This document shows positions 1 through 21,625 of a stretch of DNA of 22,599 bases, one piece after another (positions within the stretch are counted from its first letter, which is position 1; every line of letters begins with the position of its first letter). The DNA lies in the IMG/VR virus record IMGVR_UViG_3300024262_000271, positions 1-22,599 of that record; one strand, written 5' to 3'. This stretch comes from a virus. The position numbers were made by a program, and so were the translations under genes. Below the pieces are notes generated by a model that was not told the origin of the DNA, did not search any database, and worked only from the letters and a program-made list of their open reading frames with translations.

Positions 1-910
1 CATTAGTTAAAATTCTTTCCCCGGCTCCTGTTACAAGATCAACTGCAGTTTCAACTGCCCTTTCAATAAGATTACCAGGACTATACTGATCTAATCCTGT
101 TTTATTTAAAAGGAAATCTAAAACACTAGTTTCACCAATATTATCTTTACTTGATAATGTATAATAATTATAAGCAAAATTAACTTGTCTTCTAGTTATA
201 GCATCGGCACCGTAATTATATTCTTGAGTATCAATATCAATAGGACAAGCATCATGAAAAATCCATTTTGCTTTTTCTACTAAAGATTTTCCAGGACCGG
301 CTTTTGCTAATTGAATTACTGTAATGTTAGTTTTAAGAGATGAGTATTTGAGACTTTTATGACCAACCTTTATAGCCCACGGTCTTAAATTAAGATCAGT
401 AAATGAATTATTAGTTTCAAGGAATGATATATTTAAATTTTCCGGATCTTTTCTTCCATTACCAACTAAACCTTTTATTATACCAGCATTTGCAGGTCCG
501 GATCTTGAAACGTTAATACCATCACCAGGAATTTTAACAGCTTGAGCGAATATTAAACCTGGTTTATCTGATCCACCCAATGTTAAGTTGTTATTGCCAT
601 TAGTAAGATCCCATTCGTTTTTATTATTTTCATATATTTTAATATCCACATTTGATGGTATTATTCTATCAAAGTATACTAACCATAAGGATTGAATAGG
701 TACAGAATTTGTTGAAGTTAATAGGACATTATAAAACCATTCAGTTAAACCACTATAATCAGATGGAAAACCATTAGCCCCAATAGCGTTGCCTAAACCA
801 AAATCAGTTCCAACTGCTCCTCGTAATCTACGCGAAGCATTACCTAATGAATTATTTAAACCTTTAGATGCTGATGTTTTCGCAGCTGTTACTATATCTC
901 CTAAACCCAT
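1..910 (-). CDS. tail-tube-fold structural protein, C-terminus cut by window edge
   Basis: At least 303 codons read leftward from an ATG at 910 and run off the window, so the stop is not seen. The middle (SGLTEWFYNVLLTSTNSVPI) and the later part (KWIFHDACPIDID, then RRQVNFAYNYYTL) have the look of the gp19/gp48/gp54 tail-tube fold: beta strands ending in an aromatic 'FxYxYY' strand. The start is set by AAGGA about 8 bases upstream and a TAAATA box just before it. It follows the gp19 gene and its terminator. By position it could be a tube-related baseplate protein (gp48/gp54-like). The fold call rests on pattern only; the exact T4 counterpart is unknown. Confidence 0.6.
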   Translation of the reverse strand, partial: MGLGDIVTAAKTSASKGLNNSLGNASRRLRGAVGTDFGLGNAIGANGFPSDYSGLTEWFYNVLLTSTNSVPIQSLWLVYFDRIIPSNVDIKIYENNKNEWDLTNGNNNLTLGGSDKPGLIFAQAVKIPGDGINVSRSGPANAGIIKGLVGNGRKDPENLNISFLETNNSFTDLNLRPWAIKVGHKSLKYSSLKTNITVIQLAKAGPGKSLVEKAKWIFHDACPIDIDTQEYNYGADAITRRQVNFAYNYYTLSSKDNIGETSVLDFLLNKTGLDQYSPGNLIERAVETAVDLVTGAGERILTN

Positions 911-922
911 AACTATATTCCT

Positions 923-934
923 TTTAAATATTTA
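923..934 (-). promoter_or_regulatory. predicted late promoter for the 910 gene
   Basis: On the minus strand a TAAATA box (934-929) is followed by TTTAA, and the predicted start at 923 falls on the first A of AAGGA, the ribosome-binding site of the 910 gene. Known T4 late promoters are a single TATAAATA box ending at about -6. This one deviates in its first two bases. It lies downstream of the gp19 terminator, so it would restart transcription. Confidence 0.55.
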
Positions 935-1008: not shown

Positions 1009-1512
1009 CTATCCGACGAGTCTCCAATACTGGTATGCGAAAGTTGCCGTAAATGTAAGTGGAGTACCAGTACCCTCAATATTATAATCGAGTCCTGCTA
1101 AATCTGTTGGATAAATTCCAATAAAATTATAACGTCTTACTGGTTCTAAATCTTTACCTAAAAGATCCATTGTTGCTTCTTCAACAGGAACGCCATACTT
1201 ACCAGTACTTGATTCGTCGTCAAAGATTTCTTTCATCCAATTTTCCATCTTATTACGGATATTAAGACCCTCATCACACCTGAATGTAACTGCCCACGCA
1301 TCAGAACCTGTATATGAAACTGATCCCGGAACATTAAATGGAAGCCCCATAAATGGAACTGGTTGATTATTAATAGTCTTACCAGGCAATTGAGCCGTAG
1401 TGATATATAATAAATCATCCTCTGTGAAAGGTCCTAATGTCCTAACGCGGAATTGGAAATCCCTTGCAAATTCCTTTGCTTGTGCAGCTGCATAAAAATC
1501 TTGAATACTCAT
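1009..1512 (-). CDS. gp19: tail tube protein, T4 gp19-like
   Basis: A 167-residue protein, close to T4 gp19 (163 residues). In T4-like phages this protein stacks as hexameric rings to form the rigid inner tube through which DNA passes, inside the sheath. Family-typical segments are the N-terminal 'EFARDFQFRV' strand, 'GKTINNQPVPFMGLPFNVPG' around residues 44-63, 'VTFRCDEGLNIRN' and a final 'FTATFAYQYW' strand. The start is chosen from AAGGAG at 1521-1526, 8 bases upstream. The gene has its own TATAAATA box and terminator, so it can be made as a separate abundant transcript. In T4, gene 19 directly follows gene 18; here a small gene and a homing endonuclease lie between them. Confidence 0.9.
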   Translation of the reverse strand: MSIQDFYAAAQAKEFARDFQFRVRTLGPFTEDDLLYITTAQLPGKTINNQPVPFMGLPFNVPGSVSYTGSDAWAVTFRCDEGLNIRNKMENWMKEIFDDESSTGKYGVPVEEATMDLLGKDLEPVRRYNFIGIYPTDLAGLDYNIEGTGTPLTFTATFAYQYWRLVG

Positions 1513-1562
1513 GTTTGTTTCTCCTTATATATTCTTTTTATATAAAAGACGTTTTGTCTTCT

Positions 1563-1576
1563 TTAAAATATTTATA
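1563..1576 (-). promoter_or_regulatory. T4-type late promoter of gp19
   Basis: A perfect TATAAATA on the minus strand (1576-1569), the T4 late consensus. The predicted start near 1563 leaves a leader of about 50 bases with AAGGAG before the gp19 ATG. Separate late transcription of gp19 makes sense because over a hundred copies are needed per tail in T4. Confidence 0.75.
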
Positions 1577-1633: not shown

Positions 1634-1647
1634 GGTAAATATTTATA
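1634..1647 (+). promoter_or_regulatory. late promoter fused to the start codon of the homing endonuclease
   Basis: GGTAAATATTTATATG: TAAATA occupies 1636-1641 and the ATG begins at 1647, exactly six bases after the last A of the box. By the T4 late-promoter rule, transcription would start on the A of the ATG, giving a leaderless mRNA. No Shine-Dalgarno sequence is visible upstream. The core TAAATATTTATA also reads TATAAATA on the minus strand (1647-1640). Confidence 0.6.
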
Positions 1648-3305
1648 TGAAAGAAAAAATACAAGAAATAATAAAGAATATTGAATCAAGAAATTGGCGT
1701 AGAACCACAAAAGAAATAGAGAAAATTTATGACAATGTTATTACAATAACAAAATTTCTTCCATCTAATAGCAAACTAAATGAACGATTTTATTGTATTT
1801 TAAATGATATAACATCTCAACAACTTTGTAATACATGCCATAATAAACCAGTAAAATATACCAACGGTTTAAATGGTTATAGACAATGTTGTGGTTATAA
1901 ATGTTCATCAAATAATAAAGATATTAAAGAAAAAACAAAACAAACAAATTTAAGCAAATATGGTAAGCATCCACAACAGGTAAAAGAAATCAGGAATAAA
2001 TCTAAACAAACATGCCTGGAAAAATACGGAACAGAATTCGCTACACAATCAAAGGAATTCAAACAAAAAAGAAAAGAAACATGTTTAGAAAAATATGGTG
2101 TTGAAGAATTTGCTCAATCTAAAGAGTTTAAAAATCAAATACCAAGTATTGTTAAAAAATATAAAGAAACTTGTTTAAAAAAATATGGTGTTGATAACCC
2201 ACAAAAAAATAAACAACTAAAAGAAAAATGGAAAAAATCAAGATTAAACAATTTTTATAATAAAGTCAAAATGCAAACAACTTCAAGTTATACAACCATG
2301 TTTAATATCATATCATATAATGGGGTTAAACATGAGTATCAATGGCAATGCAAGCAATGTAATAATACATTCATATCAAGTTTAAAAGATGGGTCGAGGC
2401 CAATATGCCCCATATGTTTTCCGTCAGTAACATCTACACCACAAGAAGAGATATATCAATATGTTAATTCTTTTTACAAAAAAGAAATTATTAAAAAGAA
2501 TACAAGAACAATATTAGATAATAATTTAGAGTTAGATATTTATATTCCCCATAAAAAAATTGCTATTGAATTAAATGGTAATTATTGGCATGCTGAATTA
2601 GCTGGTAATAAAGATAGAAATTATCATTTAGAAAAAACCCAATTATGTGAAAAACAAAATATTCAGTTAATTCACATATTTGAAGATGAATGGGGTTTTA
2701 AACAACAAATTGTTAAAAATAGATTAAAGAATATTTTAGGAATTTCAAAATATAAAATACAAGCAAGAAAATGTATAATAAAAGAAATAGATGTTAAATT
2801 AAAAAATAAGTTCCTTAATAAATATCACATACAAGGTGAAGATAAATCAAAAATTAAATTAGGTTGTTTTTATAAAGATAGGCTAGTTGCTGTAATGACT
2901 TTTGGTAAAAGAAAAATTACTGGGGCTGATAATATGGAATGGGAACTTATTAGATATTGTACTATAGCTAATTTTAATTGCATTGGAACAGCTGGAAAGT
3001 TATTAAAACATTTCGAGAGAAATTATAACCCAAAACAAATTACTACTTATGCTGATAAAAGATGGTCACAAGGTAATATGTACTACAAATTAGAGTTTAA
3101 ATTAAGTCATATTAGTAAACCTAATTATTGGTACATGAATAAAAACTATTTAAAAAGACATCATAGAGTTGCTTTTCAGAAACACAAACTCAAAGATAAG
3201 TTAGATAAATTTGATCCTAAATTATCTGAATGGGAAAATATGCAAGTTAATGGTTATGATAGAATTTGGGATTGTGGAAATATGGTGTTTAAGAAATTAT
3301 ATTAA
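1647..3305 (+). CDS. homing endonuclease, PD-(D/E)XK/Vsr-like, with KYG repeats and zinc motifs
   Basis: A 552-residue protein antisense to the flanking structural genes. An N-terminal zinc-finger-like part has CxxC near residue 61 and a second Cys cluster near 81-86. Four repeats of the form T-C-L-E-K-Y-G then follow, with KYG near 104, 126, 149 and 179. This type of array occurs in phage endonucleases and probably contacts DNA. Another CxxC pair is near 235 and 254. The likely nuclease core is 'LELDIYIP' (D297) and 'IAIELNGNYWH' (E308), followed by 'QLIHIFEDEW'. The C-terminal 200 residues are conserved in such phage proteins but unassigned. It probably cuts phage lacking the insertion and spreads by repair. 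The ATG at 1647 is preferred over an upstream ATG at 1626 because the late-promoter motif overlaps the 1626-1647 segment. The gene is very AT-rich, which fits mobility. Confidence 0.8.
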   Translation: MKEKIQEIIKNIESRNWRRTTKEIEKIYDNVITITKFLPSNSKLNERFYCILNDITSQQLCNTCHNKPVKYTNGLNGYRQCCGYKCSSNNKDIKEKTKQTNLSKYGKHPQQVKEIRNKSKQTCLEKYGTEFATQSKEFKQKRKETCLEKYGVEEFAQSKEFKNQIPSIVKKYKETCLKKYGVDNPQKNKQLKEKWKKSRLNNFYNKVKMQTTSSYTTMFNIISYNGVKHEYQWQCKQCNNTFISSLKDGSRPICPICFPSVTSTPQEEIYQYVNSFYKKEIIKKNTRTILDNNLELDIYIPHKKIAIELNGNYWHAELAGNKDRNYHLEKTQLCEKQNIQLIHIFEDEWGFKQQIVKNRLKNILGISKYKIQARKCIIKEIDVKLKNKFLNKYHIQGEDKSKIKLGCFYKDRLVAVMTFGKRKITGADNMEWELIRYCTIANFNCIGTAGKLLKHFERNYNPKQITTYADKRWSQGNMYYKLEFKLSHISKPNYWYMNKNYLKRHHRVAFQKHKLKDKLDKFDPKLSEWENMQVNGYDRIWDCGNMVFKKLY

Positions 3306-3999: not shown

Positions 4000-6549
4000 T
4001 TATAATAATTCGTTAAAGTCTTGATCAGTACGAGTTGCTATGAAGTTTACTAAGATAAACTCAGCTATTCTAACTGGTTTGAGATAGATATCAACTTTCA
4101 ATTCGTTACTATCAATAACTTGTGGTGTGTTATTTCTTTCATCACATACGATTAAGTAGTCATAAACACCTTCGTTATTCTTTGCGATCTCAAATATTGG
4201 AGTAAGTACATTAACTACACGAGTCCTTGTAAATACTGTATTTGGTTCAAATACGAAATACCTTAAGATAGCGAGCGTAGCCTTTTCAAGTACTAAGAAT
4301 AATCTACGTACGTTAATTCTATCAAACGCACTTGGTTTCTTTTGAAGTGTCTTCTGTCCCCAAACAACATATCCATCCCCTGGGAAGAATACTACTGGGT
4401 TGACGTTTACCCTGTAAAGCAAATCTCTTTGCTTCTGAGTTGGGTTAACACCAATATCAACAAGGTCTCTTAAGACACCGTTGTTAAGACCAGCTGGAGC
4501 ATACCAAGGTTGTAAGTTAGCATCCATATTAGCCATAATACGTGCTTCATAACCTGACATTGGAAGCCAAGCGAAGTCACCTAAGCTATTATCATATTGC
4601 TTAACCCAGTTACCATAAGTACAAGCGTAATTAGAGTTCGTACCGGCGTTCAAGTTCTTTAAAGGCCAATAAACGTGTTGTGAGAAGTTTCTAGGATCAC
4701 CATCACTAGTGAAACCATCCATAACCTTAACTTCATCTGCATTCTCTTCTCCACCTTGAACAAATATATGCCTAAGTGGGTCGGCTATGAATAGACAATC
4801 TCTTCTTGTCTCTCCCGCGAATGTATTAAATAAGTTGAATATAACTTCCCAGTTGTTTTGAACACTACAAGTTGTACCTGTTGTTTGGCTAGCTAAGTAA
4901 CCATCAGATGCCCCAACTTCTTGTTCAAATACTCCATAGAGATATTTACCAGCCTGATAAGCACCAACCGAGTTGCCATCAGTGGTTGCAATTGGAGATC
5001 TAGAAGCAGCCCAAATAGTACTAAGACCACCATCAAGAACTAAGTCAATTGGGATCTGTTCTTTATTCTCTGCGAGTCTAAGTGAACGTTCAAGCTTCTC
5101 TGGAAGGTTACCAATTCTTTTACCAGTAACATCAGATGGATTAACTTGCTCACCTATTGCAAACGCACTAGATGAAGCTTTCGCACGTCTTACTTGCCTA
5201 CTTGGAGCAGTAATAGCTGGATCAGAACTAACCCAAGCGCCGTTTTGAGCGATATTAGGGTTAATATATATTTTCATATAATTTGAATCTTCGTTAACGA
5301 TTGAACCTAAGAAGTAATTAGCTCCAGCAATAGTCCTTGAAGCATCAAGTGAACCTACATGATTCTCTTGAAGTACTTTATCAAGTGATACTGTATTTTG
5401 TGATCCATAGATACTAGAGCGTACTCTGAATAATGAAATCGTTAAACTATCGTGATAAAGTTCATTACTAAAATCATAACTTGGGAATGTTTCAATATCT
5501 TCTGACATAGAATCATTAAGATCTGTTCCTGAAAGATTAAATTCTAATCTAGTTGTAGGAATTTCTCTCCAAGTACTAGTTGTATTATCTTCAAATTTAA
5601 TAGAAGTTACAGTATTAAATGTAGTATCACCAATATTTGAATTGTCATTAATTGCTACATAGTAACCGGCATTAATATCATCAACGTTTGTTTTTAATTC
5701 ATTAACAATGATTATACCAGCGTTAGCTGCAGTGTCAACACTACTTGCTGCTAAGTTACCATCTGTGTTCCAGATAAGCTGACCTGATTTCCAAGCTGCG
5801 TATTCTGTTTCACTAAGTGTGATAAGCGTTGGCTCACCAATCTCGTAAGATGTTGCAGCTGCATATGTAGTTGAGTTATCTAACTGATAAACATATGAAC
5901 CACTAATTGTAGTTCCAACGTTCATTCCTTCTGTCGTAGTTGTTACAGAGGTTGCACTAAGATCAACTGCCCATGCACCTGTAGTGTAATCAATTGTACC
6001 TGCAACTGATGAAAGACTAAGTGATGTAGCCGAAAGAATACCATTACCGTCATCAGTAAATGTATAATCAGTTCCACTAGTATTAACTGTTATAGTTACA
6101 GTTGTACCAGAAATAGGAAGATTAGAAATTGTTCCTGTTGATTGATAAACTACAGCAGTAGTTGTATCAAGAAGTTCACCCACTACAGCGATTTTTTCGC
6201 TTGAAAGGTTAGTTCCATCATAACCTATAACAGGATAAAGGAGCGCACTATAGTTGTCTCCATAACCACCACCACCACTAAGGCCGTATGGTAATCTAGT
6301 ACAAACTAGATTTCCTGGTGAATCCAATACTTGCTTACAAGTATGTCTAAAATATCTTTCTGCGGCGTTTGTAGGTGCACCGTAAACCTGTTCAAATTCA
6401 GTATTTGATGTAATGTTTACAAGTTCGTCGGTTGGACCATTAGATGCATAACCCTGTACAAGGATATTAGTTCCTACAGGTAATGTTGCGTTTAATGATA
6501 AATCGGTCTCTCGTATTTCGACGCCCGCACTCTCAATTGTTCTTGCCAT
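4000..6549 (-). CDS. gp18: contractile tail sheath protein, T4 gp18-like, with extra inserted domain
   Basis: An 849-residue protein that builds the contractile sheath around the tail tube. The N-terminus ('SAGVEIRETDLSL', then 'FEQVYGAPT') and the C-terminus ('YLIVCDERNNTPQVIDSNEL', then 'IYLKPVRIAEFILVNFIATR') are the conserved inner sheath domains that interlock between subunits. T4 gp18 has 659 residues. The extra length includes a Ser/Thr/Gly-rich beta segment at about 135-225 ('TFTDDGNGILSATSLSLSS', 'GTIDYTTGAW'), typical of exposed decorations. The start is supported by AAGGAGAG at 6557-6564, 7 bases before the ATG. It has its own upstream late box and a downstream terminator. The function is secure; the role of the insertion is not. 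Confidence 0.95.
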   Translation of the reverse strand: MARTIESAGVEIRETDLSLNATLPVGTNILVQGYASNGPTDELVNITSNTEFEQVYGAPTNAAERYFRHTCKQVLDSPGNLVCTRLPYGLSGGGGYGDNYSALLYPVIGYDGTNLSSEKIAVVGELLDTTTAVVYQSTGTISNLPISGTTVTITVNTSGTDYTFTDDGNGILSATSLSLSSVAGTIDYTTGAWAVDLSATSVTTTTEGMNVGTTISGSYVYQLDNSTTYAAATSYEIGEPTLITLSETEYAAWKSGQLIWNTDGNLAASSVDTAANAGIIIVNELKTNVDDINAGYYVAINDNSNIGDTTFNTVTSIKFEDNTTSTWREIPTTRLEFNLSGTDLNDSMSEDIETFPSYDFSNELYHDSLTISLFRVRSSIYGSQNTVSLDKVLQENHVGSLDASRTIAGANYFLGSIVNEDSNYMKIYINPNIAQNGAWVSSDPAITAPSRQVRRAKASSSAFAIGEQVNPSDVTGKRIGNLPEKLERSLRLAENKEQIPIDLVLDGGLSTIWAASRSPIATTDGNSVGAYQAGKYLYGVFEQEVGASDGYLASQTTGTTCSVQNNWEVIFNLFNTFAGETRRDCLFIADPLRHIFVQGGEENADEVKVMDGFTSDGDPRNFSQHVYWPLKNLNAGTNSNYACTYGNWVKQYDNSLGDFAWLPMSGYEARIMANMDANLQPWYAPAGLNNGVLRDLVDIGVNPTQKQRDLLYRVNVNPVVFFPGDGYVVWGQKTLQKKPSAFDRINVRRLFLVLEKATLAILRYFVFEPNTVFTRTRVVNVLTPIFEIAKNNEGVYDYLIVCDERNNTPQVIDSNELKVDIYLKPVRIAEFILVNFIATRTDQDFNELL

Positions 6550-6606
6550 AATTTTTCTCTCCTTATAAAAAAATACTATTTTAGTATGTTACAATACAAA
6601 TTTCTT

Positions 6607-6623
6607 TCTTATAATTATTTACT
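6607..6623 (-). promoter_or_regulatory. predicted late promoter of the sheath gene
   Basis: On the minus strand GTAAATAATTATAAGA: TAAATA at 6621-6616, then A-TTATA. This matches the extended motif seen before plus-strand genes. The predicted start near 6610 leaves a leader of about 60 bases that carries the strong AAGGAGAG site. The 6550-6655 gap holds nothing else I can name. Confidence 0.55.
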
Positions 6624-7366: not shown

Positions 7367-9066
7367 TATATGTTTCTCCATCCTTGTTGTTGTAACTCTA
7401 ATAAGTTATCATCACCATAAGCCTCTGGATTAATTCCAATAAATGATGGCAGTGGCGCATCCGGATCTTTTTGATACAACGGATCTAGTTTAAAATACTC
7501 GGGAGCAACCACATCAAACGGCTCTATCTTGAGAGGCATGCCTTGCTCGTCTAATGATACGACCTCATAATACTTTTGGGCTACCACAGGCTCCAGAGCA
7601 AATAAAGCCCAAATTAAAGAGTGAACTCTATCATCATAAATATAATCCCCTGCCTTCTTTTTCCAAGTACCATTTGGATATTTAACAAAGGTCTCCAATT
7701 CTTGAACTAAGGCTATATCATAAATCTCTACCACTCGTAAACTATTTAACCAATACCTCATATTCATAACACCTTTATACTTTGAGTTGGTATGTGAGTA
7801 AATTCCTAATCTATTATAATATTTTTGTTTCTGTGGGGTATAATCTACAATATTATTGTAATGATGAGTCTCTTTTAATGCATCAATTACTTGGCCACCA
7901 CAGTTATTTCTTTCAATAAGTAGATTTGGTTGACCCCATTGATGTCCCATTTTGTTTAATATAGTTGCGAAATGGAATGGATCAATTTCATTATCTGCAT
8001 ATGAAGCAACAAGTCTAATATTTGTTAAGTCAGTCAGATCGAGTACATTAGCAACAGAAGAGGCTTGTCCAATACCTTCACCCACATCAACACCTATTGC
8101 ATAAAGATGTTCTGCATCAGGCTCTTCCCAAATTTTATACTTACCATCTTCTTGTAAGAAATCTGGTTCTCTACATATTTCTCTAAAATGTGTTAACAAA
8201 TCACTATCAATAGCAGTCTGACCTGTCTCTAAGAACACGTTTCCGAATTCCTGATCAAAACTCTTACCTTCACCAGCCAAAGCTGCTAATAGTTCTTCTT
8301 TCCATTTAAGACCACGACCCGGTATCTCCCACCAGTCTACTCGTTCATGATGCCAATTCTTGAAATTTTTATCTCCACGTTCAGCCCCAGTATAAATCTT
8401 ATGGAACATATTACCAGCACCATTCGGAGTACTAACACAAAAGATCTTAGTACCTCTATGTGATGAAACAACAGGAACAACAGCGTTCCAAAACTCTTTC
8501 ATCATACCTTCAGGAATAAAGGCCATCTCATCAACGATTAGTACGTTAGCCGATTCGCCACGTGCTGCACTACCAGTCGTAGTTGAAATACCTATACTTG
8601 AATCATTTGTAAATATAACTTCTGTTTTACCCCATTGTTTAACACCAGGTTTTAACCATCCAGGTAATTGTTCATAAGCCATTCGCACCCTACGAAGAAT
8701 CATAATTGCTGTATCTTCTTTATTAGCAACAATAATTATACGCTTGTCATGTTGAAAGCATGCAGTCCACAATGCGTATATTGTCATAAGAGTTGTCTTA
8801 CCCATCTGTCTTGATGATAATAAAATAACAAATCTATTTTTAGCTAATGCCTTAAGAACTCTTTTTTGGGGTTTATATAACTCTATCTTAGTCTTACCAG
8901 TTGCTAACGTTGTAATGTAAAAATGGTTAATAGCGAAATGTTTAATATCTTTAGCACATTTCTTTATTTCCTTAACCATAGTTGGTGTATATTCAAATTC
9001 AGCTTTCCCTGTAGGCAAATTTGGGTCGCCCATATAAAACTGATTTTGGTCTACTTTCTTATTCAT
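7366..9066 (-). CDS. gp17: terminase large subunit, T4 gp17-like DNA packaging motor
   Basis: A 566-residue ATPase-nuclease that pumps phage DNA into the prohead and cuts the concatemer. The ATPase domain shows Walker A 'SRQMGKTT' (residues 85-92), Walker B 'VLIVDE' (175-180, catalytic Glu180) and the coupling motif 'STPNG' (212-216). The RNase H-fold nuclease domain shows Asp327 in 'GVDVGEG', Glu385 in 'LLIE' and the Asp478-Asp479 pair in 'YDDR'. All key residues are present and the length is near that of T4 gp17 (610), so it is intact. Its start lies 14 bases after a predicted transcription start. It overlaps the next gene by a TAATG junction. Confidence 0.96.
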   Translation of the reverse strand: MNKKVDQNQFYMGDPNLPTGKAEFEYTPTMVKEIKKCAKDIKHFAINHFYITTLATGKTKIELYKPQKRVLKALAKNRFVILLSSRQMGKTTLMTIYALWTACFQHDKRIIIVANKEDTAIMILRRVRMAYEQLPGWLKPGVKQWGKTEVIFTNDSSIGISTTTGSAARGESANVLIVDEMAFIPEGMMKEFWNAVVPVVSSHRGTKIFCVSTPNGAGNMFHKIYTGAERGDKNFKNWHHERVDWWEIPGRGLKWKEELLAALAGEGKSFDQEFGNVFLETGQTAIDSDLLTHFREICREPDFLQEDGKYKIWEEPDAEHLYAIGVDVGEGIGQASSVANVLDLTDLTNIRLVASYADNEIDPFHFATILNKMGHQWGQPNLLIERNNCGGQVIDALKETHHYNNIVDYTPQKQKYYNRLGIYSHTNSKYKGVMNMRYWLNSLRVVEIYDIALVQELETFVKYPNGTWKKKAGDYIYDDRVHSLIWALFALEPVVAQKYYEVVSLDEQGMPLKIEPFDVVAPEYFKLDPLYQKDPDAPLPSFIGINPEAYGDDNLLELQQQGWRNI

Positions 9067-9079
9067 AATAACTTCTTTC

Positions 9080-9091
9080 TTTAAATATTTA
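9080..9091 (-). promoter_or_regulatory. predicted late promoter of the terminase gene
   Basis: TAAATA on the minus strand at 9091-9086, inside the palindrome CTTAAATATTTAAG. The predicted start at 9080 gives a 14-base leader containing GAAAGAAG before the ATG at 9066. It faces a plus-strand promoter about 75 bases away, so 9067-9185 is a divergent control region. Confidence 0.5.
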
Positions 9092-9160: not shown

Positions 9161-9178
9161 GGTAAATATTTATAGGAG
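9161..9178 (+). promoter_or_regulatory. late promoter with start on the ribosome-binding site
   Basis: GGTAAATATTTATAGGAG: TAAATA at 9163-9168, and the predicted +1 at 9174 is the A of AGGAG (9174-9178). The ribosome-binding site would thus be the very 5' end of the mRNA. AGGAG is 7 bases from the ATG at 9186 and only 1 base from the ATG at 9180, which decides the start codon. The reverse strand reads TATAAATA at 9174-9167. Confidence 0.65.
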
Positions 9179-9185
9179 AATGATA

Positions 9186-9983
9186 ATGGCAAAAGACGAA
9201 TTAGCAGAAGCATATTCAAGTATCTATGTTGAAAAGAACAAAACAGTTCTTGAAGAGGCAGATACGAATAAAAAAATGACCGTGGGTAAACAAAAGTCCG
9301 GTGATGAATTGGAAGGTCCAACAAAGCAACTTGATGGTACCGGTCCTGATTCTGCTGACTTTGACAAAGCGGTTGAAGCTCCTAAGAGCATAAGCCCAGC
9401 TGGCAAAACAAGCAAAACAAGCAAGAAAAGCACAACGAAAGTTAATGAGGAGAGTACAGACATGTCAAGAAAAACATTCGAAGAACTTTACAATACAGTA
9501 ATGGTTTCTGAAGAAGACCTCGAAAGTGCAGAGTACAATGATGAAATGGGAGACTTTCCACCTTCTGGCGATGAAGGAATGGAAGGTGAAATGGGTGAGG
9601 AACGTGATGCACCGTCTATATTAGGCGAGATCAAGGACTTACTTAGCGAACTCATCAGCGTAATGGGTGGTGGAGAAGAGATGGATGTAGATGTCGATAT
9701 GGATATGGACCCAGCAGAAGAAGGTGGCTTCGGTGAAGCAACTTCTGAACCTGAACCAAGACCATTAACAACTACAGTATCACAGCTTCAATTACCTAGC
9801 CGTAAACTTGGAGGACCTGGAACAACGGTTGTCAAGAAGAAAGCTAGTGGAGCAGCCGCTACTAAAAAGCACAATGGTGAACTAGAAGCAGCACCTGCAG
9901 GATTCAAGCACGATAAGAGCAAGATGAAAGTAGATGGTTCTGGAGCAGCAGTTCAAGGCAACAATCAAAGCGCATTTGAATAA
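9186..9983 (+). CDS. acidic low-complexity phage protein with possible capsid-targeting N-terminus
   Basis: A 265-residue protein of unknown function. It starts 'MAKDELAEAYSS', with a possible prohead-protease site (L-A-E before A) and a second candidate at 'TVLEEA'. A Lys/Ser/Thr linker follows, then a very acidic Met/Gly/Asp/Glu region around residues 110-190 with a short hydrophobic helix 'ILGEIKDLLSELISVMGGG', then a basic Gly/Ala/Lys tail. The composition resembles head core or internal proteins of T4-like phages. The coding sequence is noticeably richer in G and C than its neighbours, which may reflect strong expression. It is monocistronic: own late promoter upstream, strong terminator downstream. 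A scaffold or internal head role is inference. Confidence 0.7.
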   Translation: MAKDELAEAYSSIYVEKNKTVLEEADTNKKMTVGKQKSGDELEGPTKQLDGTGPDSADFDKAVEAPKSISPAGKTSKTSKKSTTKVNEESTDMSRKTFEELYNTVMVSEEDLESAEYNDEMGDFPPSGDEGMEGEMGEERDAPSILGEIKDLLSELISVMGGGEEMDVDVDMDMDPAEEGGFGEATSEPEPRPLTTTVSQLQLPSRKLGGPGTTVVKKKASGAAATKKHNGELEAAPAGFKHDKSKMKVDGSGAAVQGNNQSAFE

Positions 9984-10002: not shown

Positions 10003-10036
10003 AAAAAAAGCATAGATTTTCATCTATGCTTTTTTT
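10003..10036 (+). terminator. rho-independent terminator after the acidic protein gene
   Basis: A perfect 15-bp inverted repeat (AAAAAAAGCATAGAT at 10003-10017 and its complement at 10022-10036) with loop TTTC, ending in a run of seven T. It lies 20 bases after the stop codon. The A-run and T-run are symmetrical, so it could act in both directions. Confidence 0.9.
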
Positions 10037-10057: not shown

Positions 10058-10071
10058 GTTAAATAATTACA
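10058..10071 (+). promoter_or_regulatory. late promoter fused to the start codon of the nucleotidyltransferase gene
   Basis: GGTTAAATAATTACATG: TAAATA at 10060-10065, and the ATG starts at 10071, six bases after the last A of the box. The predicted +1 is the A of the ATG, with no Shine-Dalgarno. It sits just after a strong terminator, so the downstream gene pair needs a promoter here. Confidence 0.6.
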
Positions 10072-11993
10072 TGAATGATAGATTTGATAATTATATGAAT
10101 GGAGTGCTTCACAGTGAATCGACCATTCTAGAAGATATCCAAACAACAACAATACCTAGAAATTCTTTAGATCCAGTAGTTTTTCAATATACAGCTGATG
10201 GACCACCTTCAATGCAAGGACAAATTGCAACACAAATATTAGGTGACCTACAAGGCTTAGATAGAATTACTGCTATTAGAGATTTTTATGTTACTGGGCC
10301 TATATTGGATTATAACTGGAATGAAAAATCACCTATAGATGTTAAAATATTTGTCGATCCTGAAAATATGGATGATATAACAACTGAGAATGTTTATACT
10401 TATATTAAACTTGTAAACGCAAGAATGGGTACGGGTACAACACATCCTATATTTTATTATGTTATACAAGCTACGGAAAATGATCCAGCTAAAGAAAAAG
10501 CGGCTTATGACCTAGCAAATGAAAGATGGTTAAAAGAACCAAAGCCAAAGTACATCGGTGAATCGATTATTGACTATGCTCATAAATCACTTGACCCTAA
10601 ACTTTGGGACCTTTCAAAAGATCCAATATCCCTTAGACCTGATGTAAAGGATGAGATAATAAAACATCTTAAGGATTACTTTGGTAATAAATTTTCAAAG
10701 TATGTTGACGAGCTTCATATTACAGGTTCTATTGGAACTCAGCAATGGAAAAGTGATACCGATATAGATATTCATATTGTTCCAAAAAATATAAAAGCTA
10801 ATATGGCAGAGTATGAAGAGGCCAGAAGTAAGATCAAACATGACTTTGATAATAAAGGTATTACAATAGCAGGGCATCCATATGAGGTTTATTTACAATT
10901 AGATCCTGAGCAAGAAAAACGCGGCGACTCTAGTTATAGTGTTCTTGACGACAAATGGATTAAAATGCCTTTCTCGCTTTCAGATGATTTTGACCCTGAT
11001 GTAGAATTCGCTTATCTTAAAAAAGATCTAAGTGGAATATTTAAATCTATGGATTCAGCACTTGGTGAACTTCGTAGAGACTTAGTTGACTATGATATTA
11101 TTGATGACTATGTAGGACATCTTGAACCTGCTGAAAAGACATTCCTTAAAGATAAGCTTAAAGTTAAGTTACAAGAGATTGAAGATGATATGGCTAAGCT
11201 TATTAAGTATAAGACAAAATATCATGGCGCTAGAAAATCAGGTTACGGTCCAGAAGATCAAGAGAACGCTTGGAAAGAAGTTATTAAATCTAAAAGTTGG
11301 GCGCCTGGTAATGTTATGTGGAAGATGTTAGATCGTTATAAGTACGTTACATTAACCTTAGCTTTACAAAAGGTAATGAGAGAAGATGAAAATAAGAAAA
11401 TTGATCCTTCTGACATTAAAGATATTAAGAAAGTATTTAATTTTAAAGAGCATCACCAAATTCAAGAAAGAGCTCCAAGAGTTCATAGAAATTCTAAAAG
11501 AAAAAATAGGGGCAAGCCAACTGAGCCCTTTAAACCAACTGTTGGATCTATAGCTCAAGCTAAAGGTAAGAATAGATGGAAAGATCCATTAGCCAAACAT
11601 AGTATGGTAGCAGCTCGCGGAACAAACAGACAGTCTATGGATCAAGTCTCTCAATCAGATAGACTCGATAAGTTTTCAAGAAACTTACCATATGCAGAAA
11701 GAATTTTAGATATTGCAAAAGACGCACAAGCCGGCTCATGGAAATTAACTCAACGTCAGGTATTAGAAATAGCTGAGAAGTATGGAGTTAAAGTTCCAGA
11801 TATGGAAAATAGAATTAAGAAACTTGGTAAGACTGGAATTGTTCTTTTCAGACGATCACCTAAAAAGCTTTTATTAATGAAAACAGCAAGTACTGTAAGG
11901 GGGAATGTTTCTCCAGGTAAGAAATCAAAAGCTGGTCTTAAGAAAGCTTTCAAAATGCCAAGTTTTAAAACGAATTTTAGAAAGAGTAAATAA
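10071..11993 (+). CDS. nucleotidyltransferase-fold protein with two tandem domains
   Basis: A 640-residue protein. The second domain has the Pol-beta-superfamily signature 'TGSIGTQQWKSDTDIDIHIV' (residues 218-237), where Gly-Ser and the Asp-x-Asp (DTDID) would bind nucleotide and metal. A first, degenerate copy occurs at about 75-95: 'TGPILDYNWNEKSPIDVKIF', with the same spacing but GS and DxD lost. An acidic/helical middle and a strongly basic C-terminal part (from about residue 450) follow. The latter may bind nucleic acid. The substrate is unknown; related folds transfer nucleotides to RNA, proteins or small molecules. The start is at 10071, because an in-frame ATG at 10026 lies in the terminator stem. 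It overlaps the next gene by TAATG. Confidence 0.75.
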   Translation: MNDRFDNYMNGVLHSESTILEDIQTTTIPRNSLDPVVFQYTADGPPSMQGQIATQILGDLQGLDRITAIRDFYVTGPILDYNWNEKSPIDVKIFVDPENMDDITTENVYTYIKLVNARMGTGTTHPIFYYVIQATENDPAKEKAAYDLANERWLKEPKPKYIGESIIDYAHKSLDPKLWDLSKDPISLRPDVKDEIIKHLKDYFGNKFSKYVDELHITGSIGTQQWKSDTDIDIHIVPKNIKANMAEYEEARSKIKHDFDNKGITIAGHPYEVYLQLDPEQEKRGDSSYSVLDDKWIKMPFSLSDDFDPDVEFAYLKKDLSGIFKSMDSALGELRRDLVDYDIIDDYVGHLEPAEKTFLKDKLKVKLQEIEDDMAKLIKYKTKYHGARKSGYGPEDQENAWKEVIKSKSWAPGNVMWKMLDRYKYVTLTLALQKVMREDENKKIDPSDIKDIKKVFNFKEHHQIQERAPRVHRNSKRKNRGKPTEPFKPTVGSIAQAKGKNRWKDPLAKHSMVAARGTNRQSMDQVSQSDRLDKFSRNLPYAERILDIAKDAQAGSWKLTQRQVLEIAEKYGVKVPDMENRIKKLGKTGIVLFRRSPKKLLLMKTASTVRGNVSPGKKSKAGLKKAFKMPSFKTNFRKSK

Positions 11994-12835
11994 TGGCAAG
12001 ATGTGGAAGAAATCCAAAAGATAATTGGGAATCAATAAGATACCTAAATAAATCAGAAGCTAGTAATGAACAAGCTATCTTTGCTTCGTACTGGGAAGAA
12101 TTAACCAACCTATATGGAGTTAGAGTTGAATATTATCTTTATAACTATTCTTTAACAGGTCATGATTACCTTTACGGAGAAGAAACAACAGCATCATATT
12201 CTGGTCCATTTAACATGAACGTATTAATTGATATTCCAGATGAAGCTATTCTATTATCTAAATTTGGTTTGCAAACAGAATCTGATTTTACTGCTATCAT
12301 TCCTATTGTAACTTTCCAAGATGTATTTGGAGTAGGGGCAGAACCTAAATCACAAGACGTTGTTAGGTTAATTGAATCTGGTTGGTCTACAGATGAGTTA
12401 CCCCCATCGGGTGGGGAAGTATTAAGTGAGTTATGCACAATGACTAGTCCTATCTCTCCAGCTACTTTATTCTATACAGTCTCTGATAAGGATTGGGTTC
12501 GTTGTCCTAGGCTTTATGAAATCACTGAAAGAAATTGGCAAGACAATTCGATGGGTGTTAATACCTTACAAGGTCATTATGTTTGGATCATAAGAGGTAA
12601 AAGATTTGATTATAGTTACCAACCAGGCCTTACACCAGAATGTAAAGAAGGTGTTGTATCTGATGAAACAACTGATGTTGGAATTCTTTCGGGTGGAACA
12701 CAAGACCCATCATTACAAGATCCACAACCTGAGAAACCTTATTCAGATAACACTACAGAAGATAGTGATGAAAATATTTGGGATTATGATGTAGGTGATG
12801 AGACTAGAGATGATGATGTATACGGCGAGTATTAA
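11993..12835 (+). CDS. possible neck/head-completion protein, gp14-like pattern
   Basis: A 280-residue protein coupled to the preceding gene by TAATG. The order of features 'YWEELTNLYGVRVEYYLYNY' (about residues 31-50), 'LYGEETTASYSGPFNMNVLI' (about 58-77), then 'LSKFGLQTESDFTAIIPIVT' resembles the T4 gp14 neck protein family: 'Y-G-V-x-V' near the N-terminus, a skewed edge strand and an 'FG...D/E-x-T' strand. The C-terminal 60 residues are acidic and low-complexity. Gp14 joins head to tail after packaging, and neck genes lie near the terminase in T4-like genomes, which agrees with the location. The similarity is recalled by eye and could be wrong. Confidence 0.5.
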   Translation: MARCGRNPKDNWESIRYLNKSEASNEQAIFASYWEELTNLYGVRVEYYLYNYSLTGHDYLYGEETTASYSGPFNMNVLIDIPDEAILLSKFGLQTESDFTAIIPIVTFQDVFGVGAEPKSQDVVRLIESGWSTDELPPSGGEVLSELCTMTSPISPATLFYTVSDKDWVRCPRLYEITERNWQDNSMGVNTLQGHYVWIIRGKRFDYSYQPGLTPECKEGVVSDETTDVGILSGGTQDPSLQDPQPEKPYSDNTTEDSDENIWDYDVGDETRDDDVYGEY

Positions 12836-13146
12836 AGCAGTTTAATAAAAGCATCTTCTTTTGTTATTTCTTTATATAACGGACCGGGGCCATTACCATC
12901 ATATTTTTCATTCTTCCAATTATCAAAATTGTAATAATTCTTTTTCTGTGTTAAAGCCCATTTATCATTACTTGGCACATTACTACCAACAAACTTCCAA
13001 CCCAACGTGGTAGATTTATAAATTCTCCAATAAACAATATTGCGGCTGGTTGTAATAAAATATGGGTTCCCATAATCATAATCAGGTGTTTGATCTATTA
13101 AAAGATATGTTGTTTTTTTAACCGAAGATGTATCTAGTTTTGCCAT
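12832..13146 (-). CDS. solitary member of the KEEAFIEML-tail small protein family
   Basis: A 104-residue protein of unknown function. It ends 'PLYKEITKEDAFIKLL', the same tail as the eleven-gene array at 20194-22599, about 7 kb away. 'PLYKEITKE' matches the member at 22019-22261 best, and the aromatic middle ('YWRIYKSTTLGWKFVGS') has the same style. It is the longest complete member and the most divergent in its tail. It starts inside the end of the upstream 48-residue gene (29-base overlap), and its stop overlaps the stop of the convergent plus-strand gene. A duplication moved between loci, or an old remnant array, would explain it. Confidence 0.75.
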   Translation of the reverse strand: MAKLDTSSVKKTTYLLIDQTPDYDYGNPYFITTSRNIVYWRIYKSTTLGWKFVGSNVPSNDKWALTQKKNYYNFDNWKNEKYDGNGPGPLYKEITKEDAFIKLL

Positions 13147-16477: not shown

Positions 16478-16791
16478 GTTTGTTCTCCTTCATCCGATGT
16501 ACCTGGTGTTGCTGTAAAAAACACTTTAAGTGCTTCTACAATGGCAGGAGTTAATTTGATAGATAGAACATCCATTCCTATATTAACACCACCATCTTCG
16601 TCTTCAGAAATATTTATTTGCTCTGTCGCAGGAGTCGATCCAAATTCACCAACATTTGAGTCAGTATCTTGTTGGATTCCACATCCACAACCTTCACCTG
16701 GATGTCCACCTTGTGGTTGATCACCTGCAAGGGCAGTTTTAATCATATCACCGACATCCATTTCACATATTTGTTTATATTTACTTTTCAT
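16465..16791 (-). CDS. hypothetical acidic protein
   Basis: A 108-residue acidic protein of unknown function. It has a Gly/Cys-rich stretch near residues 28-40 ('GGHPGEGCGCGIQQ'), a polar middle and a C-terminal hydrophobic helix ('IKLTPAIVEALKVFFTATPG'). Two nearby cysteines could bind metal, but no full motif is present. A late box at 16815-16810 lies just upstream and predicts a start on AGAGGA, giving a leader of about 13 bases. Confidence 0.65.
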   Translation of the reverse strand: MKSKYKQICEMDVGDMIKTALAGDQPQGGHPGEGCGCGIQQDTDSNVGEFGSTPATEQINISEDEDGGVNIGMDVLSIKLTPAIVEALKVFFTATPGTSDEGEQTCQN

Positions 16792-16803
16792 ATTGTAGTC
16801 CTC

Positions 16804-16815
16804 TGAAATTATTTA
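16804..16815 (-). promoter_or_regulatory. predicted late promoter before the 16791 gene
   Basis: TAAATA on the minus strand at 16815-16810, at the very end of the RNase H gene. The predicted +1 at 16804 is the first A of AGAGGA, the ribosome-binding site of the gene at 16791. It could let the genes downstream of RNase H be expressed late. Confidence 0.45.
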
Positions 16816-17720: not shown

Positions 17721-18045
17721 TATATTTTTCCTCTTCGTTTTTATTTTTTAAATTCTCTCTATGCTCATGTTCTTTAAGACATGTTTCATAGACATCTTTA
17801 GGAAGTATCTGAACCAAATCTAGAATTTTCTTTTCTATTCCTTCCCTGACATCCTCTTCTCTTATATATAATAACGTCATTTCTGGGAAAGTTAAAGCTT
17901 TAAATTGGCCACCATCGGGTATTTCATTTACAAATACAAAGAACTTACCAACATGGTCCCCTGCTGTGCACGCGTATAATGCTCTTTGGATTGGTTTATA
18001 CCGTTTTTCTTTTATCTTTTCTGATAAATATTTAAAAGGATTCAT
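17665..18045 (-). CDS. hypothetical protein upstream of RNase H
   Basis: A 126-residue protein of unknown function. The middle looks beta-rich ('GDHVGKFFVFVNEIPDGGQF', then 'TFPEMTLLYIREEDV') and the C-terminal third is a charged helix. The ATG at 18045 is preferred to an in-frame ATG at 18057; both lack a good ribosome-binding site. The 3' end overlaps RNase H by 56 bases, which suggests coupling. In T4 the genes before rnh are dsbA and 33, but I see no clear similarity. Its first codons carry the promoter of the divergent 18050 gene. Confidence 0.65.
   Translation of the reverse strand: MNPFKYLSEKIKEKRYKPIQRALYACTAGDHVGKFFVFVNEIPDGGQFKALTFPEMTLLYIREEDVREGIEKKILDLVQILPKDVYETCLKEHEHRENLKNKNEEEKYNELNNRWEQLAPQSPLDK
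18023..18040 (+). promoter_or_regulatory. predicted late promoter inside the divergent gene's first codons
   Basis: GATAAATATTTAAAAGGA: TAAATA at 18025-18030. The predicted +1 at 18036 begins the AAGGA ribosome-binding site, 9 bases before the ATG at 18050. The box is embedded in codons 6-8 of the minus-strand gene that starts at 18045, so late plus-strand transcription would run against that gene's promoter region. Confidence 0.55.
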
Positions 18046-18049
18046 AATT

Positions 18050-18256
18050 ATGTCCATTGATTTAAATTTAGCTTTACAAGCATTAGATAACGCAGGCGAA
18101 ACTATTGTCATAAAACCAAATGGTAAAAATTACCGTAAGAAATTTAAAGACGGAAGGTATCGTTATACTAAACTAGGAAAGCTTATTTCAGCTAGTGCTT
18201 CTAATAAGAACGGTTTTAACATATCTAATGTTAAACCTAAGAATCCTAAGAAATAA
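18050..18256 (+). CDS. hypothetical basic small protein
   Basis: A 68-residue, Lys-rich protein of unknown function with an N-terminal amphipathic part ('LNLALQALDNAGETIVIKPN') and a basic tail ending 'NPKK'. It could bind nucleic acid. AAGGA and a late box position the start at 18050; upstream in-frame codons overlap the divergent gene. It is a lone plus-strand gene between minus-strand blocks. Confidence 0.7.
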   Translation: MSIDLNLALQALDNAGETIVIKPNGKNYRKKFKDGRYRYTKLGKLISASASNKNGFNISNVKPKNPKK

Positions 18257-19522: not shown

Positions 19523-19760
19523 AATCTTGCATTAAACGTTCGCTTATCCAATTGTATGGATCGCCTGTTCTCGCTTTAGCAGTACCATATGGCATTTCAC
19601 CCGCGTTGATATAGTAATTAAAAGCAATTTCATAAGCTTCATCTGAGAGTTCCCTATCTGGGTTCATAACAAATTCTTGTATTGCTGGATGGTTAAACAT
19701 TTTCTGTATCGCAACGTTTCCGTATGCTTCCATTAGCAATTCTGTGTCTTTATCTTTCAT
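19485..19760 (-). CDS. small protein with possible capsid-targeting N-terminus
   Basis: A 91-residue protein of unknown function. It starts 'MKDKDTELLMEAYGNV', with an L-M-E/A site like those of the genes at 3948, 9186 and 19909. The rest is helical ('SDEAYEIAFNYYINAGEMPY'). AAGGAG lies 7 bases upstream of the ATG, with a perfect TATAAATA just before it. If cleaved, its N-terminus could deliver the protein, or a fusion with the downstream gene, into the prohead. Confidence 0.75.
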   Translation of the reverse strand: MKDKDTELLMEAYGNVAIQKMFNHPAIQEFVMNPDRELSDEAYEIAFNYYINAGEMPYGTAKARTGDPYNWISERLMQDFESYTRNRPLEQ

Positions 19761-19771
19761 ATCATTCTCCT

Positions 19772-19785
19772 TTAAATTATTTATA
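19772..19785 (-). promoter_or_regulatory. T4-type late promoter of the 19760 gene
   Basis: A perfect TATAAATA on the minus strand (19785-19778). The predicted +1 at 19772 is the first A of AAGGAG, which is the ribosome-binding site of the gene at 19760. It faces the 19896-19909 promoter in a 148-base divergent gap that otherwise shows only AT-rich sequence. Confidence 0.75.
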
Positions 19786-19895: not shown

Positions 19896-19909
19896 GATAA
19901 ATACTTATA
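19896..19909 (+). promoter_or_regulatory. late promoter fused to the start codon of the 19909 gene
   Basis: GGATAAATACTTATATG: TAAATA at 19898-19903, and the ATG starts at 19909, six bases after the last A of the box. The predicted +1 is the A of the ATG. No Shine-Dalgarno is present. Confidence 0.6.
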
Positions 19910-20199
19910 TGAAAAGTAAAAAGAACGAATTATTAAATGAATCGAGCTTTAATATATTACACAATACACAGGATATTTCAAAAGCAATCCTTGATGCAGA
20001 ACAAAATCTAAAAGAACCTAAACAACCAAATACTTTATGCAGAGCTAAAAATCTATTAGTTCACATTGAAAGTATGTTAAATCAAACGTGGTTAGTTCCA
20101 AATGAAAACGTTGCAGAACATTCAAACCCTGCATATGCGAACCTAAAACTTCAGATCAAAGATATGATTAAAAATATTGATGAATCTGTTGATTTATAA
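19909..20199 (+). CDS. small protein with possible prohead-protease site at N-terminus
   Basis: A 96-residue helical protein of unknown function. It starts 'MKSKKNELLNESSF', with L-N-E before S in the same position as in the other motif carriers. The central part 'LCRAKNLLVHIESMLNQTW' is amphipathic. The mRNA is predicted to be leaderless. Its stop codon overlaps the stop of the convergent array gene (TTATAA), so transcripts from both strands meet here with no visible terminator. Confidence 0.7.
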   Translation: MKSKKNELLNESSFNILHNTQDISKAILDAEQNLKEPKQPNTLCRAKNLLVHIESMLNQTWLVPNENVAEHSNPAYANLKLQIKDMIKNIDESVDL

Positions 20200-20427
20200 T
20201 ATTTCTATAAAAGCTTCCTCTTTAGTTATCTCTTCATTCCAGACTCTATCATTAGTCTTTTTATCTATCCAAACAAATTTTGAATTAAAAGAACTATTCC
20301 AATGACCAGATGTTCTAATGTACTGCATATAAGTACCATCTTCAAATACTTTATAGACAGTCGTTGGAGCTAAAATTTTAGTTCCACTGATCATCATATT
20401 ATATTGTATTGCATATTTAAATTTCAT
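20194..20427 (-). CDS. array member 1 (3'-most), KEEAFIEML-tail family
   Basis: 77 residues. N-terminus 'MKFKYAIQYNMM', a middle with 'RTSGHWNSSFNSKFVWIDKK', tail 'EITKEEAFIEIL'. It is the last gene of the chain; no array gene follows, yet its tail is intact, so the tail is kept for protein reasons and not only for the next gene's ribosome-binding site. Its ATG overlaps the upstream stop as ATGA. The function is unknown. Confidence 0.75.
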   Translation of the reverse strand: MKFKYAIQYNMMISGTKILAPTTVYKVFEDGTYMQYIRTSGHWNSSFNSKFVWIDKKTNDRVWNEEITKEEAFIEIL

Positions 20428-20666
20428 AATATTTCTATAAACGCTTCCTCTCTACTTAGTTCTATAAAAAATTTTGATTCTTTAATAGGTACATGCCAAT
20501 TACACCATTCATTCGTTTTGTAGTTGAGGTACTGCCAACGTTCAAATGGTTTACCAGTTCTAGAATCAAGTGACCTAGCAATTTCTTTTCTCCAAATCCA
20601 GGTATGGTTATCGTTATATGGATCTGTTAGAGTGTCTTTATAATATGTCCAAAAATCTTTTTTCAT
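20424..20666 (-). CDS. array member 2, Trp-rich
   Basis: 80 residues. The most tryptophan-rich member: 'HTWIWRKE', 'FERWQYLNYKTNEWCNWHVP'. Tail 'LSREEAFIEIL', with Arg replacing the usual Lys. ATGA overlaps join it to both neighbours. It has no cysteine pair, signal peptide or membrane helix. Confidence 0.75.
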   Translation of the reverse strand: MKKDFWTYYKDTLTDPYNDNHTWIWRKEIARSLDSRTGKPFERWQYLNYKTNEWCNWHVPIKESKFFIELSREEAFIEIL

Positions 20667-20869
20667 AACATCTCCAAGAAAGCTTCTTCTTTAGATATTG
20701 GAATTAGGCCGTCAGTCCAACCATCTACTGGGTTATCTAACAATGACCAAACACCAACTAGTTTAGGATTGAAGTTACCTGAATGAAACCAGTATACATC
20801 ATCTACCAGTTTAACCACTACTCGAACATCTCTCTTTTTTGTTTTTAATATATCTATAAAATATTTCAT
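20663..20869 (-). CDS. array member 3
   Basis: 68 residues. 'MKYFIDILKTKKRDVRVVVK' forms a basic start, then 'VYWFHSGNF', 'GVWSLL' and 'GWTDGLIP', then tail 'ISKEEAFLEML' (Leu for Ile). The W-x-x-x spacing of short beta strands recalls the other members despite little direct identity. ATGA overlaps on both sides. Confidence 0.75.
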   Translation of the reverse strand: MKYFIDILKTKKRDVRVVVKLVDDVYWFHSGNFNPKLVGVWSLLDNPVDGWTDGLIPISKEEAFLEML

Positions 20870-21156
20870 AATATCTCTATAAAGGCTTCTTCTTTAGTGA
20901 TTCTTTTAAAATTTTCTTTAATTTGTTCTTTAACATAAGTACGATCGTTGGGCCTGATATAATTCATTTTCATATATCTTTGAGGTCCCCATAAAATATT
21001 CCAACCACGACTCTGGTCCTGATCAGTATTCCAACCCCAGAGATAATCTCTATCATCATGTTCATATGGTTCACTATTATTGGTTTTAACCTGCCTGTAA
21101 ACGATACCAGCTTTCCTATGAACATAATAATTATATTTTTCTTTTTTCATTCTCAT
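20866..21156 (-). CDS. array member 4, longest of the array
   Basis: 96 residues. It starts 'MRMKKEKYNYYVHRKAGIVY', is rich in Tyr, Arg and Trp ('YLWGWNTDQDQSRGWNILWG'), and has an extra basic stretch before the tail 'ITKEEAFIEIL'. A second ATG two codons in is an alternative start; the first overlaps the upstream stop as TAATG, which favours it. Confidence 0.75.
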   Translation of the reverse strand: MRMKKEKYNYYVHRKAGIVYRQVKTNNSEPYEHDDRDYLWGWNTDQDQSRGWNILWGPQRYMKMNYIRPNDRTYVKEQIKENFKRITKEEAFIEIL

Positions 21157-21380
21157 TACAACATCTCTATAAAGGCTTCTTCTTTAGATATTTCAACATA
21201 ATCACATTCTTCTAGTGGGTCCATATTGGTATCTGCCACATGAACCCATTTGGAAGGATCAGTCCCCCAACTATCATAAACACATTTCTCAAGACCATTT
21301 TTTTTGCGGCACCATATTACCCTATGACCTTTAGCTATACCAATATTAGGGTCGCTACTTTTCCATATAAAATATTTCAT
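21156..21380 (-). CDS. array member 5
   Basis: 74 residues. 'MKYFIWKSSDPNIGIAKGHR', then 'VIWCRKKNGLEKCVYDSWG', then tail 'ISKEEAFIEML'. Its core 'W-x-R-x-x-x-G-x-E-K-x-x-Y' also occurs in member 8 (21792-22019), which suggests these two are closer relatives. It is joined upstream by ATGA and downstream by TAATG. Confidence 0.75.
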   Translation of the reverse strand: MKYFIWKSSDPNIGIAKGHRVIWCRKKNGLEKCVYDSWGTDPSKWVHVADTNMDPLEECDYVEISKEEAFIEML

Positions 21381-21625
21381 AACATCTCTATAAACGCTTC
21401 CTCATGAGATATTTCTATCATTGTATGAGTAGACAATCCATAATAAATCCATTTCCATACACCCATCGAATCAGGTATCCAATAATCATAAAATTTTATG
21501 TTCTCTGACCATGGTCGTTCATGCCATGGCCCTTCGATGGCCTTTGCTGTTTTATCCCGAAGCTGAGAATCTCTAAATAATAAAGGTTCGTTATCATATA
21601 ATATTTTGTTTTTATAATATTTCAT
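21377..21625 (-). CDS. array member 6
   Basis: 82 residues. 'MKYYKNKILYDNEPLLFRDS', a charged middle, 'FYDYWIPDSMGVWKWIYYGL', then tail 'ISHEEAFIEML' with His in place of Lys. ATGA overlaps on both sides. The function is unknown. Confidence 0.75.
   Translation of the reverse strand: MKYYKNKILYDNEPLLFRDSQLRDKTAKAIEGPWHERPWSENIKFYDYWIPDSMGVWKWIYYGLSTHTMIEISHEEAFIEML

Follow-up and report, generated by a model that had tools for sequence, protein, structure and literature searches.

The DNA studied here, a virus record of 22,599 bases that we call the window, is a fragment of an uncultured myovirus of the T4 superfamily, in which the genes for tail sheath, terminase and tail tube could be matched in PHROGs. 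With the terminases of the best 30 phages listed (cyanophages, rhizobial phages and T4-like phages among them) its own shares 30-34% identity, and a megablast search of named phages with the whole window found nothing. The hexamer TAAATA stands before late, that is virion, genes (sheath, tube, a tube-like gene and terminase) and also before several genes with no assigned function. Between the tail genes, and antiparallel to them, lies gene 1647-3305 on the plus strand, which matches phrog_3339 (E 1.2e-132) and has its own predicted leaderless late promoter. The minus strand at 20194-22470 carries ten consecutive small ORFs (57-96 aa, overlapping by 1-4 nt) which, by eye, seem to share a C-terminal tail like ITKEEAFIEIL, as the ORF at 12832-13146 seems to as well; a Pfam search with four of the ten and with 12832-13146 returned no match.

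Five sites of the window show the same succession of a TAAATA box, a spacer, a purine-rich Shine-Dalgarno (SD) sequence and an ATG (Table 1). A preliminary description of this DNA had singled out these five sites, and every one of them is present in the window. The gene that follows the site at 923 (gene 910) is tail-tube-like, with a weak match to phrog_45, and runs off the edge of the window; the one that follows the site at 9174 is 265 to 267 aa long, there being a second in-frame ATG at 9180 besides that at 9186. The frame at 18036 is open for more than 20 codons upstream, and the site nevertheless fits the pattern of TAAATA, five bases, a purine run with GG, and ATG.

Table 1. Boxes, translation signals and predicted transcription starts (+1) in the window
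Feature	Position	Strand	Elements
SD site 923	908..934	-	box 934-929; predicted +1 on AAGGA; AAGGAATATAGTT-ATG(910)
SD site 9174	9163..9188	+	box 9163-9168, 5-nt spacer; predicted +1 on AGGAG; AGGAGAATGATA-ATG(9186)
SD site 16804	16789..16815	-	box 16815-16810; predicted +1 on AGAGGA; AGAGGACTACAAT-ATG(16791), 108 aa
SD site 18036	18025..18052	+	box 18025-18030; predicted +1 on AAGGA; AAGGATTCATAATT-ATG(18050), 68 aa ORF
SD site 19772	19758..19783	-	TATAAATA box, core 19783-19778; predicted +1 on AAGGAG; AAGGAGAATGAT-ATG(19760), 91 aa
Sixth box, same layout	9064..9091	-	weak purine stretch AGAAAGAAG; predicted +1 9080; ATG 9066 of terminase gp17
Leaderless form	1636..1649	+	TAAATA TTTAT ATG; gene 1647-3305, homing-endonuclease-like
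Leaderless form	10060..10073	+	TAAATA ATTAC ATG; gene 10071-11993
Leaderless form	19898..19911	+	TAAATA CTTAT ATG; gene 19909-20199
Exception, tail tube	1510..1574	-	TATAAATA box (predicted +1 1563); predicted 51-nt leader, distal AAGGAG, ATG 1512
Exception, tail sheath	6547..6621	-	TAAATA box (predicted +1 6610); predicted 61-nt leader, distal AAGGAG, ATG 6549

The preliminary description had placed the transcription start on the first A of AAGGA, AGGAG or AGAGGA. Because the "first A" is a flexible definition, we replaced it by the offset from TAAATA to the GG of the SD, which at the five sites is 6, 7, 7, 7 and 8 (7 at the 18036 site); the register thus stands, to within 1 nt on either side, while the wording that first described it was somewhat elastic. 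The leaders had been put at 12-15 bases, and they are indeed short, with a predicted range of 12-14 nt.

A motif search with fixed spacing had been proposed as one way to check this register, and it bears the register out, both in the window and, as described below, across related contigs. Five of the 51 TAAATA boxes of the window are followed by five bases, a purine run with GG and an ATG, and 300 dinucleotide shuffles of the window contain the same pattern 0.24 times on average (maximum 2). When the gap is varied there are no matches at gaps 0-3 and 8-12, and 3, 5 and 3 at gaps 4, 6 and 7, counts that partly repeat the same sites because the pattern allows its start to slide; the 14 other A4T2 permutations yield at most 3 matches at any gap. 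Under a stricter count, which leaves out the sites at 18036 and 10071 because their frames are open upstream, 12 starts of the window are preceded by a box: four are in register with an SD, two are leaderless, one has a distant SD, and five are of other kinds, having no counted SD and other gaps, some of these five being probably chance boxes. Since TAAATATTTA is palindromic, several boxes can be read on both strands, and the window has such pairs at 925/934, 1636/1645, 9082/9091, 9163/9172 and 18025/18034.

Three further genes of the window have the ATG itself in the place that the SD takes at these five sites (Table 1), although the start of gene 10071-11993 is less certain, its frame being open upstream with a further ATG at 10026. 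Tail tube and tail sheath follow neither arrangement. The suggestion that late mRNAs of this phage carry minimal 5' ends is only partly supported: the predicted leaders of the five SD sites would agree with it, and it fails as a general rule on the predicted leaders of these two genes. The tube leader (1513-1563, minus strand) folds into a strong predicted 5' hairpin (z -4.91). We had considered conserved 5' hairpins in long leaders and dropped the idea, for among eight that were folded (two of tube genes and six of sheath genes, the latter from contigs other than L002 and L095) that of the window tube alone was significant, the other seven having z values from -1.74 to 0.74.

Relatives of the window were gathered through its terminase (80 loci), sheath (7) and tube (25, of which 22 were new); searches through the nuclease gene and through the 640-aa gene found none. 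What we call the close set consists of twelve contigs that have no large stretches in common (the window, L002, L003, L087-L089, L093-L095 and L097-L099); L096, which has most of its sequence in common with L097, was left out of it and was kept, after deduplication by sequence, in the gene-free scan. L100-L115 make up a mid group, and 81 loci (L004-L081 and L090-L092) a distant set.

The SD register is conserved across the close set. Pairs of a box and an SD-bearing start were counted within 45 nt, and 35 pairs were found, corresponding to 34 distinct starts because the window start at 16791 pairs with two boxes. In 28 of the 35 the offset from TAAATA to the GG is 5-10 nt, a bin that was fixed only after the data had been seen, and in 20 it is exactly 7 nt; the full series of offsets is 4, 5, 5, 6, 7 (20 times), 8 (three times), 9 (twice), 13, 17, 20, 23, 26 and 30. 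These 28 register sites span 12 protein families and have leaders of 8-15 nt. The result does not hinge on the window, since without it 23 of 47 box-preceded starts still have their GG at 5-10, 17 of them exactly at 7, and an SD in register is the commonest arrangement of the close set (27/59 box-preceded starts). The scan that ignores gene calls likewise has its TAAATA peak at gaps 5-6 (24 and 17 out of 337 boxes, with many a site entered at both gaps), and the top peaks of AAATAT, AATAAT and ATAAAT fall at the offsets expected for words that overlap TAAATANTTA.

What kind of element, then, is the box? SD and leaderless sites have in common the motif TAAATANTTAW: in the 41 close-set sites the box is followed, after one free base, by T, T and A in 39, 38 and 34 cases respectively. 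Between -51 and -12 of these sites no column exceeds 0.35 bit; nothing like a -35 element is seen there, only a slight A/T richness. In T4 the octamer TATAAATA occupies positions -13 to -6 (as given in the part of PMC1524935 available to us), so that the start is predicted at gap 5, and by this rule the predicted +1 of the SD sites is the first purine of the SD. At gap 5, 27 of the 28 register sites have A or G, and all 13 leaderless sites of the close set have A. The preceding base is also A in 21 of the 28 register sites (NTTAAAAGGAG), so that the start could be 1-2 nt to either side of the predicted +1. The octamer's two leading bases are not conserved in the 41 sites, which were selected by TAAATA (T at -13 in 11/41, A at -12 in 17/41); the same source reports, in that part, that several T4-like phages show poor conservation of T(-13) and that the box of Aeh1 is CTAAATA. 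Of 12 related records searched, 7 contain homologues of gp55 (phrog_234), and all 7 are mid or distant relatives; none was found in the close-set fragments L094 and L097 (32 and 51 kb), nor in three other records.

The leaderless companion form proposed in the preliminary description is real, and in more distant relatives it is the commonest predicted form. Over the 81 distant loci, 179 of 360 counted starts have their ATG at gap 5 or 6 from TAAATA, a figure inflated by near-identical contigs, since these loci were deduplicated for identical stretches only; an SD in register is found in only 4/360, and 103/360 lack an SD and have their ATG at gaps of 7-13. A scan of 1377 distinct ATG sites in the first 80 relatives together with the window places TAAATA at gap 5 in 107 and at gap 6 in 79, with single digits at most gaps above 13, and other permutations of the hexamer are raised mainly where the words overlap. 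This ATG peak coincides with the +1 of the T4 rule and thus gives indirect support for the start point. The mid group is mixed, with a weak register: its 49 starts include 6 leaderless ones, 9 with GG at 5-10 and 9 with GG at 11-20, and the test of box-GG spacing was not significant there (n=9, p 0.23).

The two forms are both found within four protein families. In the family of gene 910, L099 has the leaderless TTAAC-ATGGGATTA, and L088 has an SD cassette in ATTAT-AGAGGAATAT-ATGGGATTA; among the box-bearing members of this family the predicted leaders are of 0-4 nt in distant relatives and of 5-41 nt in the mid group. Among the matches listed for the sheath, L097 and L098 have an SD in register after the box, predicted leaders of 31-61 nt are seen in 8 of the 11 close contigs, the window among them, and L099 has no box; 30 of the 40 distinct distant rows listed have leaders of 0-8 nt, and in the other 10 the leader is 13-23 nt long and any SD is weak. 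Members of the sheath/terminase and gene-910 families without TAAATA are listed and left unclassed, some having TAAGTA instead. Among the matches listed for gp17, a variant box, TAAGTA followed by TTTA, with a very short leader, was seen in several distant loci, such as L014, L016, L045 and L055; it occupies there the place that TAAATA has in other relatives.

The preliminary description had called the SD sites a second promoter class. This we do not retain: the box with NTTAW is common to both groups of sites and four families contain both kinds of start, which argues for one promoter with two kinds of start. With the +1 at gap 5, SD-led and leaderless forms both place their predicted start on a translation signal. 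On its sequence features, the promoter is best read as one class, of the T4 late kind, whose start would coincide with the translation signal of the gene, be it an SD or the AUG.

The likeness to T4 is indeed close as regards the promoter itself: the T4 late promoter (TATAAATA, served by gp55, gp33 and gp45) has the same TAAATA core, no -35 element, the same association with late structural genes and the same predicted +1 at gap 5. The differences lie around the box. The leading TA is a feature of the T4 octamer that the clade sites do not conserve, and after the box T4 has only a preponderance of AT (according to the part of PMC2988020 at hand), whereas the clade sites have a defined TTA. Above all, of 15 starts counted in a 50-kb late stretch of T4, 10 have the GG at an offset of 11-20 nt from the box and 1 has it at 5-10 nt, compared with about 7 nt here (Fisher p 2e-6, T4 versus the close set). 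That single T4 start, gene 19 for the tail tube, is a precedent: it reads TAAATA CTACA GAGGCTAAT ATG, the T4 rule puts its +1 on the G of GAGG, and its 9-nt leader resembles GAGGATAAT-ATG of L094. A looser count adds T4 gene 51 (offset 8). Among other phages of which 30-50 kb each were scanned, phiM12, Syn9, P-SSM2, C48C1 and DLP6 have no GG at 5-10, and Mosig, OspM_OC and avDM6 have two such starts each. In 50 kb of the Pelagibacter phage HTVC008M (L085) a box precedes 10 starts, of which 7 are leaderless and 3 have their GG at 9, not 7; the prediction of late promoters in pelagimyophages has been reported as unsuccessful (PMC7029224, in the portion available).

Leaderless transcripts offer a second comparison, phage transcripts being often leaderless according to a passing statement in the accessible part of PMC5312081. 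The three window genes of Table 1 and the distant relatives are predicted to start on AUG from the same box as the SD sites; the five SD sites themselves differ from leaderless mRNAs in that their short predicted leaders keep the SD.

We think that these observations are best explained by promoters of the T4 late (gp55) kind, with the sequence TAAATANTTAW and no -35 element, on whose fixed start point selection in this clade would have set the translation signal, and we give this reading a probability of about 0.75. An RNA polymerase of the gp55 type would start 5 (or 6) nt past the box, promoter use and +1 being here what we infer from the letters, and selection would place the SD or the AUG exactly at that start. 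Genes with an SD would then have an mRNA that opens on the first purine of the SD (AAGGAG..., GAGGA..., AGAGGA...), with a leader of 8-15 nt that would hold little beyond the ribosome site and its spacer; genes without an SD would have an mRNA that opens on AUG. A possible benefit is that the ribosome site would be spared pairing with upstream RNA: over 29 sites the mean predicted accessibility of the SD is 0.73 for transcripts beginning at the +1 and 0.49 for read-through RNA. Somewhat less firmly, we consider it probable that this holds for a broad branch of mostly uncultured phages of the T4 superfamily, HTVC008M included, in which the gp55-RNA polymerase start would be superposed on the first purine of the SD or on the AUG, and that lineages switch between the two through the gain or loss of an SD cassette of 8-15 nt that separates the 5-nt spacer from the start codon.

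The most serious objection is that the register could be a mere by-product of compact intergenic spacing, the SD being tied to the ATG in any case and the box squeezed near the gene. The leaders are indeed short, and at least one box, that at 16815-16810, overlaps the TAA stop codon of the preceding gene, as read from the sequence. However, for 26 short-leader sites the box-GG spacing is tighter than it would be if box-ATG and GG-ATG distances were independent (permutation p 0.00025). Leaders of 8-15 nt nearly all open with an SD at gap 5, from GAGGATAAT (9 nt) to AAGGAGATAAGATAT (15 nt), and GG offsets of 11-16 are nearly empty (1/54 sites) even though longer leaders exist. The box at 9163, moreover, is separated from the divergent gene 9066 by about 95 free bases, as read from the sequence. 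We therefore regard compact spacing as an unlikely explanation of the register.

Less probable still is a design like that of T4 I-TevI, in which the late promoter lies within a hairpin that hides the SD of read-through RNA and thereby confines translation to late transcripts. There is a precedent in I-TevI and in other T4 late genes (PMC2988022, the part available to us), where the late promoter is likewise set so that the late transcript starts near a free ribosome-binding site, and the lower accessibility of the SD in read-through RNA at our 29 sites is what such a design predicts. But when the flanks are swapped between genes the read-through accessibility is 0.489 (sd 0.028, 60 swaps), compared with 0.488 observed; since swapped flanks leave it equal, there is on average no gene-specific sequestering hairpin, and in this the clade sites differ from I-TevI, which has one. 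Two single genes, at 7106 in L097 (modelled accessibility 0.02) and at 2201 in L093 (0.08), could be exceptions with a hidden SD.

The notion that TAAATA is not a promoter at all, being instead an A/U-rich translation enhancer or a ribosome standby site just 5' of the SD, can draw on the general knowledge that A/T-rich sequence is common in that place, and it seems to us the least credible of all, since such an element should keep a fixed distance to the SD or ATG, whereas the 5 nt that follow the box lead to the SD in some genes and to the ATG in others, even within one family, and since it fits the T4 late promoter core and start rule (PMC1524935, in the part cited above) and gp55 homologues are present in mid and distant relatives.

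A search of the open-licence PMC literature found no paper that describes, for T4-like phages, late promoters whose transcripts are leaderless or begin on the SD. Within that literature, and on the evidence seen, the lineage-wide lock between transcription start and SD, together with its exchange with leaderless starts, appears to be new.

If late promoters of the T4 type do have their start superposed on the translation signal, late expression in a large T4-like group known mainly from metagenomes would obey one rule, that of a box, five bases and a translation signal. For uncultured phages the sequence alone would then suffice to predict late genes, start codons and transcription starts, and start-codon calls would be corrected in the process. 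The families that hold both forms would, in addition, offer a series in which SD-led and leaderless mRNAs come from one promoter, which would be useful for asking when phages abandon the Shine-Dalgarno site.
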